The notes under the pieces are model-generated. The model had not been told where the DNA came from. It did not search any database and saw nothing but the letters and a program-made list of their open reading frames with translations. Positions 1,595 through 53,840 of a stretch of DNA of 53,840 bases are shown here, piece by piece (positions within the stretch are counted from its first letter, which is position 1; each line of letters opens with the position of its first letter). A program made the translations under genes and the position numbers. This DNA is from a virus: positions 1-53,840 of the IMG/VR virus record IMGVR_UViG_3300025671_000087, one strand, 5' to 3'.

Positions 1595-1772
1595 TACGGG
1601 GGGTATGGGCCAGGGGGGTGTGCGTAGATAGTATATATGCCCAATGACAGAGATGGGATTTTTTAGTTTCGGTCAAAATGTCGCACCTAAATGTGATCAC
1701 ATCGTGTTATCCATTATATTTTGTGATCACAAATAAAATATCAATAAAAATAAAAATATTTTTGTCTACCCC

Positions 1773-1802
1773 TTGACGCCGGGGCATAGAGTATTATATA
1801 AT
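1773..1802 (+). promoter_or_regulatory. Rightward sigma70-like promoter upstream of the structural arm
   Basis: -35 TTGACG (1773-1778), 18-bp spacer, consensus -10 TATAAT (1797-1802). The surrounding ACCCCTTGAC and ATAATACTTAA blocks recur, inverted, upstream of the tRNA/integrase (50693-50739). It is the only consensus -10 in the divergent region and reads toward the gene at 2001. Confidence 0.6.
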
Positions 1803-1817
1803 ACTTAATGTAATTAT

Positions 1818-1920
1818 ACTTTAAGTAACTCTATGTTACTTAAAGTACCCTAAAGTAACTTTAAGTTTCTATTATCTCTTATATATTAATAGTTATTAAG
1901 TACTTTAAGTAACTTTAAGT
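1818..1920. promoter_or_regulatory. Array of five ACTTTAAGT operator-like sites
   Basis: The 9-mer ACTTTAAGT or its complement lies at 1818-1826, 1838-1846, 1858-1866, 1902-1910 and 1912-1920. Centre spacings are 20, 20, 44 and 10 bp, close to whole helical turns. The array sits just downstream of the -10 at 1797-1802. Two more copies (50641-50649 and 50684-50692) flank the tRNA/integrase promoter region. This strongly suggests cooperative binding by one regulator at both loci. Confidence 0.6.
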
Positions 1921-3539: not shown

Positions 3540-3898
3540 TGGAAAACTTAAAGTTACCTGTAGCCCTCGTGATTGCTATGGCTGCACAGCTTGCGGCAGG
3601 CGTGTGGTGGGTATCCCAACAAGCAGCTACTATTTCTAACCTAGAGGAGACAGTAAGTCAGCTAGGTTCACGTATGGCTATCGAGGACAACGTAAACCTT
3701 AAACGTGATGTCGCAGGTAATAGTGTAGAAATACAGTACGTATGGAATGATGTAGAAGAGTTATGGGAAGAGTTAGATGCTTTAACTCGTACCATCTCAG
3801 GTATTACTGCACTACAACAACGTGTAGCTCTCATAGAGAATGACTTTAAGTATATAAACCGTGACCACAACTCTATTATAGGTCCAATGGAGAAATAG
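3539..3898 (+). CDS. N-terminal anchor plus coiled coil, candidate i-spanin
   Basis: 119 aa. Membrane helix at about 6-26 (ALVIAMAAQLAAGVWWV), then long helical segments with heptad spacing. ATG 3539 overlaps the previous stop by one base. Together with the small signal-bearing protein that follows (3901), it could form an inner/outer membrane spanin pair, but no lipobox is seen in the partner, so the role is inferred. Confidence 0.5.
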   Translation: MENLKLPVALVIAMAAQLAAGVWWVSQQAATISNLEETVSQLGSRMAIEDNVNLKRDVAGNSVEIQYVWNDVEELWEELDALTRTISGITALQQRVALIENDFKYINRDHNSIIGPMEK

Positions 3899-16382: not shown

Positions 16383-16410
16383 TTGACAAATACTAATTCA
16401 ACAGTATAAC
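16383..16410 (+). promoter_or_regulatory. Capsid promoter TTGACA-16-TATAAC
   Basis: -35 TTGACA (16383-16388), 16-bp spacer and -10 TATAAC (16405-16410), starting 5 nt after the scaffold stop. TATAACTATAGG here is identical to the 12-mer just upstream of tRNA-Arg. It gives the capsid gene its own transcript with a leader of about 215 nt. Confidence 0.6.
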
Positions 16411-49440: not shown

Positions 49441-49607
49441 TTTACGTTCACCTCCAGGCATAAAACTTTTTGATTGTTGTTGTTTACAAGAACCCCAGCC
49501 TTTTGTAGAGACTGTTGGCATTCTTCCTGAGTAGAAAAGCTGCCGATCTGAAAGTAATCAACACCTGTTCCAGCTATTATTTGTACCCATATAGATACCC
49601 ATATCAT
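49437..49607 (-). CDS. Small protein with hydrophobic N-terminus (56 aa)
   Basis: ATG 49607 overlaps the integrase stop and its stop overlaps the next start (ATGA). MIWVSIWVQIIAGTG is a hydrophobic or signal-like start; DYFQIGSFSTQEECQQSLQKAGVLV...VLCLEV follows with two cysteines. Similar signal-bearing small proteins occur in cyanophages as I recall. Exact overlaps on both sides support it. Confidence 0.65.
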   Translation of the reverse strand: MIWVSIWVQIIAGTGVDYFQIGSFSTQEECQQSLQKAGVLVNNNNQKVLCLEVNVK

Positions 49608-50488
49608 ACTCTTTGTCTCCTATCTAATGCAGACTTTGCGGTTTTTAAACTAAACTTGTTGTACGGATTTAAACTTTGTACATGCTTATGACCTGATACA
49701 GATTGAATTGCAAGATGGTCTACACCACTCTCGATCATCTGCACAATGGCGGTCTTTCTTAAGTCACCCACTCGGAGGTCATCAGGAAGCCCTGCAGCAG
49801 CCTTAACGTCTGTAAGCAGTGTTGTCATCTGAACAATCGTTAGAGGCCTGTAGGCACTGTCCTGTGGCCTGTGGTGAGGTACTACGTAGGGCTGGAAGTC
49901 CCAGTCCTCTTTCTGCTGTTTGAGCATCGTGAGTAAGTTGTCTGGAATAGGTAGCTCAACAGTTGCACCTCGTTTGCTTTGAGTGATTGTCACTACCTCA
50001 TTCTCAAGGTCAACTTGATCCCATTGCAAGTTGCGTATGTCTATGGGTCTCTGCCCCCATTCATAACACATCAAGATAATCAGCCCAAGGTTTCTCCAGT
50101 CGAAGTTTTGGAATGCTGCGTCGAGGCATGATAGTACTTGGTCGTGCGTCCAGATAACTGAACGTGGCTCACTTGTACGTTTCCGTACTCGTGACATAGG
50201 ATTGGTAGGCATCTTCTCCATCGTGATCAGATAGTTCATCAGGACGGAGAATATACGTGCCTTGTGGTTTGCATTGGATGTAGATGTCTCCATCTCCCAC
50301 GTATCGTATATCTCCGTGCAAAGTGGGACGTTAAGATTCTTGATGGAGATATTACCCAGAGTCCTACCACCTACGGACATACGACAGAAAGAATGTAGTG
50401 CCGACTCGTAACCTTTTTGAGAGGATGCTGCCAGTGATGCAAACTGCCGTGTGTGTAGGTATTCATCTACTGCTGTTCTAAATCTCAT
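49604..50488 (-). CDS. int: Tyrosine recombinase / integrase
   Basis: 294 aa from ATG 50488 with AGGAA upstream (a TTG at 50512 is possible). Core-binding domain about 1-105 and catalytic domain after. R147 (GQRP), K173 (SKRG), R244 (GDLRKTA), H267 (SGHK) and Y276 (NPYNKF) are in place; the usual His of the HxxR box is Gly241. Translationally coupled to the ThyX-region genes and lying 61 bp from tRNA-Arg. Confidence 0.85.
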   Translation of the reverse strand: MRFRTAVDEYLHTRQFASLAASSQKGYESALHSFCRMSVGGRTLGNISIKNLNVPLCTEIYDTWEMETSTSNANHKARIFSVLMNYLITMEKMPTNPMSRVRKRTSEPRSVIWTHDQVLSCLDAAFQNFDWRNLGLIILMCYEWGQRPIDIRNLQWDQVDLENEVVTITQSKRGATVELPIPDNLLTMLKQQKEDWDFQPYVVPHHRPQDSAYRPLTIVQMTTLLTDVKAAAGLPDDLRVGDLRKTAIVQMIESGVDHLAIQSVSGHKHVQSLNPYNKFSLKTAKSALDRRQRV

Positions 50489-50548
50489 ATCTTTCCTAAC
50501 CAGTGTGTACAATCGTCATGTGGATCGTCCATGTTAGCCTCCATAGAT

Positions 50549-50625
50549 TGGCCCACCCTGCAGGACTCGAACCTGCAACCTACTGCTTAGAAGGCAGTTG
50601 CTCTATCCAGTTGAGCTAAGGGTGG
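50549..50625 (-). tRNA. tRNA-Arg(TCT), 3' CCA encoded
   Basis: 77 nt. Acceptor CCACCCT/AGGGTGG, D stem GCTC/GAGC, anticodon stem ACTGC/GCAGT with loop CTTCTAA (anticodon TCT), T stem GCAGG/CCTGC with TTCGAGT loop, discriminator G and CCA. All stems pair perfectly, so it looks functional. It reads AGA/AGG, which are frequent in this phage. Its place beside the integrase also makes its 3' half a candidate att core. Confidence 0.95.
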
Positions 50626-50635
50626 TGAACCTATA

Positions 50636-50692
50636 GTTATACTTAAAGTATCTATTATTACTATAATAATAATTATTACAGTAACTTTAAGT
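50636..50692 (-). promoter_or_regulatory. tRNA promoter element with ACTTTAAGT sites
   Basis: Leftward TATAACTATAGG starts at 50641, with -10 TATAAC (50641-50636) 10 nt before the tRNA; no good -35 is seen, so an activator may be needed. ACTTTAAGT copies lie at 50641-50649 and 50684-50692, the latter in a 15-bp palindrome GTAACTTTAAGTTAC. Confidence 0.5.
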
Positions 50693-50739
50693 TACCTTAA
50701 GTATTATAAAATAGACACTTTATTTCGTATGTCAAGGGG
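50693..50739 (-). promoter_or_regulatory. Second copy of the ACCCCTTGAC...ATAATACTTAA promoter element
   Basis: Leftward -35 TTGACA (50735-50730) and TATAAT (50708-50703), but 21 bp apart, longer than optimal. The ACCCCTTGAC and ATAATACTTAA blocks match those of the rightward promoter at 1769-1809. Would drive tRNA and integrase. Confidence 0.5.
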
Positions 50740-51714
50740 TCAGCCTAAATATTTTTTACCTAGTCTAGTTGCATACTCATCGTAGTAGCTAGAGTACTGT
50801 GCCATATCGTCAATCTGACACTCCTCCATGAGGCTGTACGGGGTGAAGCCGTATTGATCTAGCATCTCTGCAATCTTATGCGGGTAGTCGATCACCAGTG
50901 TCTCGAGCTGATCTATGTTGTCCTCATTACATACTGGCTCATAGCCAATAGCCTGAGACCTGTACACATACTTGTCCTCAACAACACTTGGGTCACGTTT
51001 GAACACTAGACGTGTCCAGTCAGCTAGACACAAGGCAGTCAGTAAGACATTAGCAAAATCAATGTCTTGAGTCTCATTGACACCATGCTGTCCGTAATAT
51101 CCGACACTGATGTTTGTGCATTCTGACACGTCAAGTATGTACTCGTTGCTGTCAGTGTAAGAGCCACCAGAGTCAGCCTTGAACTGTGGCAAGTTTATTG
51201 CCTCTGAGAAGGATGCAGCAAACTCATCTGAGGCTGTACGTAGGCCCATCTGGTGAGTGATGACGGACTCAGTGCCGTACCGATCAAAGCTAATCACTGC
51301 GTCAATATAACTCAACCACCAAGGGTTATCATCTACAAGTGCACGGCTACCCTTGCACCCTACTTCCTCAGCTGCATGGATGACATAGACACCCTCTACA
51401 CCCTCTTCAATCATGCCAAGGATAAGCCATACACCAGTGGTACAGTCAGCACCTAGGCAGCTGGATACCTTTGGGTCAGCAACAGAGATTACATCATTGA
51501 TAACAACGAGTTGCTGCATACCCTCTGTCTTGTGCACAGTGTCATGGTGTGCAGTGAAACACAGGTTAGGCTCATCACCAACGATGTGTATGTAGTTGCC
51601 ATGTCTGTCAGGTAAACCGAACGTAGGTTCGAGAAACCTTTGACAAAATTCTTTCTGCGTCTGACTACCCTCTGGGCGTTTGTAACGCAGCATCTCAATT
51701 AAACTATAGGTCAT
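50740..51714 (-). CDS. M20/M28-type zinc metallopeptidase-like protein
   Basis: 324 aa from ATG 51714 (ATGA overlap with the upstream stop). All ligands of a two-metal aminopeptidase fold are visible: H56-x-D58 (TAHHDTV, H56 first ligand), bridging D90 (LGADCTTGV), E116-E117 (HAAEEVG), D144 (ISFDRYG) and H210 (YGQHGVNET). The C-terminal 80 residues are not recognised. Such enzymes are unusual in phages; it may trim host peptides or modify a host protein early in infection. Confidence 0.75.
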   Translation of the reverse strand: MTYSLIEMLRYKRPEGSQTQKEFCQRFLEPTFGLPDRHGNYIHIVGDEPNLCFTAHHDTVHKTEGMQQLVVINDVISVADPKVSSCLGADCTTGVWLILGMIEEGVEGVYVIHAAEEVGCKGSRALVDDNPWWLSYIDAVISFDRYGTESVITHQMGLRTASDEFAASFSEAINLPQFKADSGGSYTDSNEYILDVSECTNISVGYYGQHGVNETQDIDFANVLLTALCLADWTRLVFKRDPSVVEDKYVYRSQAIGYEPVCNEDNIDQLETLVIDYPHKIAEMLDQYGFTPYSLMEECQIDDMAQYSSYYDEYATRLGKKYLG

Positions 51715-53799: not shown

Positions 53800-53840
53800 G
53801 TTACCTCCTAGTTAAGTAATTGTTTTAGTTGGGATATGAT

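Follow-up and report, generated by a model that had tools for sequence, protein, structure and literature searches.

Two non-coding loci of an HMO-2011-type (Roseobacter/SAR116) phage, one ahead of the late genes (P1) and one on the opposite strand ahead of the integrase (Pint), carry the same arrangement of a promoter followed by an array of short palindromic dyads, and in related phages the dyads of the two loci change together. From these sequence patterns we put at about even the chance that each locus carries a copy of a common cis-regulatory module, and that these copies serve as operators for a single cooperative phage DNA-binding protein that coordinates late and second-early transcription. 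The window analysed is the whole of a 53,840-base virus record; among named phages, its DNA is closest to Roseobacter phages such as CRP-9 and CRP-13. HMO-2011-type phages are an abundant marine group, and the same promoter and palindrome plan stands ahead of their late genes and their integrase/replication genes.

In the module, a sigma70-type promoter is followed by what would be the operator array, in the stretch expected to be transcribed first; its dyads recur every 10-12 bp on either arm of an AT-rich inverted repeat. These dyads would be filled cooperatively, at both promoters, by a single dimeric DNA-binding protein encoded by the phage, and the filled dyads would be expected to block initiation or early elongation. 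Until the protein was removed, the late operon would then stay in one regulatory state with the second early operon, which comprises integrase, thymidylate synthase, primase/helicase and polymerase. The features at the two loci are collected in Table 1.

Table 1. Promoters, dyad groups and neighbouring genes of the two loci, in window coordinates.
Feature	Position	Strand	Details and basis
Promoter P1	1773..1802	+	-35 TTGACG 1773-1778, 18 bp, -10 TATAAT 1797-1802; consensus match; kept upstream of relatives' first late gene
Left dyad group, P1 array	1818..1866	+	ACTTTAAGT 1818-1826, ACTTAAAGT 1838-1846, ACTTTAAGT 1858-1866, degenerate units between; sequence, spacing statistics
AT-rich centre, P1 array	1867..1901	+	Sequence, relatives, spacer test, arm co-adaptation at P1
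Right dyad group, P1 array	1902..1920	+	ACTTTAAGT 1902-1910 and 1912-1920
TTTTTTCTGTCGT element, between array and P2	1943..1955	+	Recurs at 100/158 relatives' P1 loci by pattern
Promoter P2	1969..1997	+	-35 TTGACT 1969-1974, 17 bp, -10 TATAAC 1992-1997
First late gene, 84 aa	2001..2255	+	Immediately follows the P1 array in all examined genomes that have one, the loci having been fetched via this gene; regulator candidate
Tyrosine integrase gene	49604..50512	-	First protein gene after Pint
tRNA-Arg(TCT)	50549..50625	-	Downstream of Pint array; dispensable in relatives
Right dyads, Pint array	50629..50649	-	ACTTTAAGT 50649-50641, degenerate ACTATAGGT 50637-50629
AT-rich centre, Pint array	50650..50683	-	Forms stem (spacer and hairpin tests)
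Left dyads, Pint array	50684..50701	-	ACTTAAGGT 50701-50693, ACTTAAAGT 50692-50684
Promoter Pint	50703..50735	-	-35 TTGACA 50735-50730; TATAAT 50708-50703 at 21 bp, or TATTTT 50713-50708 at 16 bp; consensus match
HTH/coiled-coil gene, 3' end	53808..53840	-	Cut by contig end; complete in L008 6675-7166

The repeated 9-mer, ACTTTAAGT, is itself an odd palindrome (ACTT-T-AAGT). Counting either strand, it has nine matches in the window, against a mean of 1.24 and a largest count of 4 in 100 dinucleotide shuffles, and seven of the nine fall in two short non-coding stretches (1818-1920 and 50641-50692); the remaining two, at 3546 and 3843, lie within late genes. Copies at the first locus start at 1818, 1838 (minus strand), 1858, 1902 and 1912, giving steps of 20, 20, 44 and 10 bp, close to multiples of the helical turn, and those at the second start at 50641 (minus strand) and 50684. 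A sequence-only reading of this DNA had reported five copies with helical-turn spacing in the one stretch, two in the other and sequence blocks common to both. All of this was borne out, the positions being exact and the blocks ACCCCTTGAC (1768-1777, plus; 50731-50740, minus) and ATAATACTTAA (1798-1808, plus; 50697-50707, minus) occurring at each locus. In an unbiased scan of the window with the array at 1801-1930, the 50.6 kb locus ranked first, with 17 shared 8-mers per 110 bp compared with 8 for the next best. In the left group at P1, three perfect odd palindromes are set 20 bp apart and weaker units lie between them; Pint is a smaller version of this plan on the opposite strand, running from promoter through two dyads, an AT-rich stem and two further dyads to tRNA-Arg and the integrase. 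At both loci the spacing between sites peaks at 10, 11 and 12 bp.

The plan is kept in relatives at both loci, as a sigma70-like promoter, dyads 10-12 bp apart, an AT-rich centre and further dyads. Among 80 viral contigs fetched through the first late gene, it is present at P1 in most of those listed, and 70 integrase relatives show it upstream of the integrase, some with a tRNA and others without. The earlier description of the module as shared with a tRNA/integrase region therefore stands only in part: the same cis module does precede the integrase operon, but the tRNA is ruled out as a component, because many relatives have the Pint module without one. Of 65 distinct loci covered by a blind 8-mer scan, 30 passed a strict criterion for a clear second array, which usually lies 4-8 kb upstream of P1; such scanning also recovered the second arrays at 3.4 kb in CRP-13 and 5.1 kb in CRP-9. 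CRP-13 has no annotated integrase, nor does CRP-9 in the parts examined, and both retain the second array. This bears on the suggestion that the dyads are integrase arm-type sites near attP. One array copy does adjoin the tRNA and integrase, but the larger copy lies several kb off, before the late genes, and because arrays exist where no integrase is annotated (CRP-13 already contradicts the suggestion) we reject it, giving it almost no credence.

Another way to view the arrangement is as a replication origin or primer site, in which DNA synthesis would start from a transcript made by the promoter across the AT-rich stretch, with the dyads as initiator sites. The order of promoter and AT-rich inverted repeat would suit such a role, as would the minimum of cumulative GC skew at about 0.8 kb in the window, close to P1, but skew is non-diagnostic because it also tracks gene direction. 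Two copies placed ahead of operons suit regulation better, and the blind scan did not find the second copy in the HMO-2011/CRP-1-like clade; we regard an origin as improbable. The published genomes of HMO-2011-type phages (PMC9038755, PMC6918029) define the group in which the module occurs, and a word search of these papers returned no mention of promoters. Four members, CRP-3 (which integrates at tRNA-Met according to the same papers), CRP-212, CRP-235 and CRP-738, gave neither an array at the searched ends nor the 84-aa gene.

The dyad itself differs among phages (ACTTTAAGT, ACTTAAGT, ACCTTAAGGT and ACTATTAGT are examples), and the two loci of one genome agree. Phages like that of the window have the odd dyad ACTT(T/A)AAGT, and others have the even dyads ACTTAAGT, ACCTTAAGGT, ACCTTAAGT or ACTATTAGT, or ACYRAYAGT, matching in each case between the two loci of a genome. 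Among the 32 contigs with both loci placed by synteny, 23 are odd at both, 6 are even at both, 3 involve unclassified motifs and none is crossed. The two loci remained correlated in partial Mantel tests that controlled for protein distance (r 0.56, 0.42 and 0.35 with the 84-aa protein, the integrase and both; p 2e-4), with the caveats that the contigs are related, that partial tests can be anticonservative and that the even class may be just two clades. Further switches, to ACCTTAAGGT (L174/L135) and ACCTTAAGT (L173/L150), are seen, and agreement is looser, with mixed dyads, in part of the CRP-9-like clade. No between-locus match of the dyad kind was found in the upstream flank of P1.

CRP-9 and CRP-13 infect the same host strain, FZCC0023, and differ in dyad, the former having a ACTATTAGT-type dyad and the latter ACYRAYAGT. 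A host factor of single specificity is therefore unlikely, and the binding factor is probably phage-encoded. Every variant is rich in A and T and has many TA steps, as might be expected if a host AT-binding protein recognised the array, but phages that share a host strain have different dyads, each matching its own second locus, and we consider such a protein very unlikely. Given a module that stands before both arms, is kept in relatives and has dyads that change together, one factor, probably phage-encoded, is the natural explanation. The sequence-only reading had proposed one phage regulator for both arms, and to that extent, as a probable inference from the shared conserved module and the concerted dyads, it is upheld. 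The module also offers a handle for finding the regulator, with two conserved control points and a readable site code, and the switches in specificity that close relatives show in nature, among them cultured phages on one host strain, can be used to the same end.

Each array is also an inverted repeat, a feature that the sequence-only reading overlooked, and its left and right arms are co-adapted beyond the motif that they share. We compared predicted hairpins with chimeras, made by joining arms from different genomes. At Pint, own arms gave -20.6 kcal/mol and chimeras -12.4 kcal/mol (p 2e-9; four modules mis-anchored at the promoter were excluded from this comparison); at P1 the values were -19.9 and -15.3 kcal/mol in the window, CRP-9 and CRP-13 clades. 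Because the apex had been picked from each genome's own hairpin, the procedure was repeated on shuffled modules, and the own-versus-chimera gaps of 7.5 (Pint) and 5.1 (P1) exceed the shuffled gaps of 0.8-2.3 (p 2e-9 and 2e-4). These gaps reflect co-adapted arms, and are compatible with a reading of the element as DNA or as RNA. A central spacer hairpin by itself was set aside, its effect in the spacer test being modest and not universal.

The co-adaptation of the arms weakens the operator reading, because the complementarity exceeds what the shared dyads need and an operator array does not require it; sites that are asymmetric but complementary from arm to arm, as in L149 and L212, also count against it. 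With an inverted repeat of this kind in each array, the mechanism may lie at the level of RNA. The main rival, which we hold to be possible but rather doubtful, is a leader element, one per main operon, in which the repeat once transcribed would form a long AU-rich hairpin; this hairpin would either alter RNA polymerase or serve as the binding site of a phage protein. Lambda nut and HK022 put sites are antitermination elements just downstream of each main operon's promoter, and the element here resembles them: it is hairpin-forming, it sits just downstream of both promoters, where from promoter position it would be transcribed, and within a genome both operons have the same type. The greater stability of own hairpins than of chimeras fits this rival too, as do left-arm A-to-G changes that preserve G-U pairs and the arms of L149 and L212, where some sites are asymmetric and divergent in sequence and yet the arms are well paired. 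Against it, the individual sites are palindromic, DNA-like dyads at 10-12 bp, with 10-bp units expanded in tandem in one contig (L012); some changes between L140 and L136 weaken arm pairing while agreeing with the other locus; no boxA or N-like component was found; and an Rfam search matched only the tRNA, leaving the array without an RNA-family match, which is weak evidence. A broader statement, which we think less likely than not, is that HMO-2011-type phages have a previously undescribed two-locus element, a palindrome-built inverted repeat read by a phage factor either in the DNA or, once transcribed, as a leader hairpin that reprograms RNA polymerase, in which factor and element have switched specificity repeatedly and in concert.

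If the dyads are operators, as in our preferred reading, a binding protein should be encoded by the phage. The sequence-only reading had noted that the window holds no recognisable repressor gene, which is partly an effect of the contig break. The record is incomplete at its junction (53840/1); its ends map 1,293 bp apart in L008, a contig of the same phage that supplies the missing part (L008 6708-8000), and this gap holds most of a 163-aa HTH/coiled-coil gene. Clustering and HMM search place the family, with weak HTH matches plus a coiled coil, in 31 of 41 early arms, and both the even-dyad clade L176-L179 and L184 have diverged versions, as might be expected of the dyad-binding factor. However, there is no member in CRP-9, CRP-13, L053, L087, L183 and others that retain an array, and the putative recognition helix varies widely among genomes sharing the ACTTTAAGT dyad. 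Because of these absences and of this variation at a constant dyad, it is a weak candidate: we reject it as a universal binder and think it unlikely to be the dyad-binding factor. Members of the family have one or two HTH units and differ in their C-terminal parts and, strongly, in the recognition helix; the gene is possibly an immunity-type specificity gene.

The ribbon-helix-helix proteins MetJ, CopG and ParR act at tandem-repeat operators, which resemble the arrays here in that short dyads recur at a promoter with roughly the period of the helix. No protein of this kind was found here: there was no ribbon-helix-helix Pfam match among ten window proteins scanned, and the 84-aa product is not supported as such a regulator, having no Pfam family and a predicted structure made almost wholly of helices (the first model was poor; the second had a pLDDT of 88). 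No solved structure matched it, its PHROG matches were only weak, and the relatives found were all viral and unnamed. A 56-aa gene that follows the integrase and is common to CRP-2, CRP-9 and CRP-13 was set aside on its sequence only. No dyad-binding regulator was thus found among the HTH/coiled-coil, 84-aa and 56-aa genes, and the suggestion of a new regulator family is not supported.

The nearest DNA-level comparison is with operators of temperate-phage repressors, such as the stoperators of cluster A mycobacteriophages (PMC6550527, PMC9283540), which are likewise short sites repeated at several places for one phage factor, with specificity differing between related phages. Here, too, a site recurs in several copies at more than one promoter of the phage, and its specificity agrees within each genome but varies from phage to phage. 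The sites here differ in lying at two promoters only, in forming helically phased palindromes inside an inverted repeat, and in having no repressor assigned to them.

Several minor features surround P1. Two GTGATCAC palindromes (1693 and 1723, the second as TTGTGATCACAA; window 1691-1734) lie just upstream of it; among 138 P1 loci of relatives, 45 have such palindromes in the 1.5 kb before P1, as does CRP-13. GAAC-N4-GTTC palindromes, which recall LexA- or TetR-type operators, are also found upstream of P1 in the window (about 1439-1460), L060 and L064. Within 330 bp upstream of position 2134 in L012, the P1 array contains five ACTTTAAGTA units in direct tandem, likely a recent expansion. The P2-type promoter, TTGAC-N17/18-TATAACTA, is present again at 16383 (plus strand) and 42178 (minus strand); the type stands before late genes and in the early arm, and is also seen in CRP-13 and HMO-2011.
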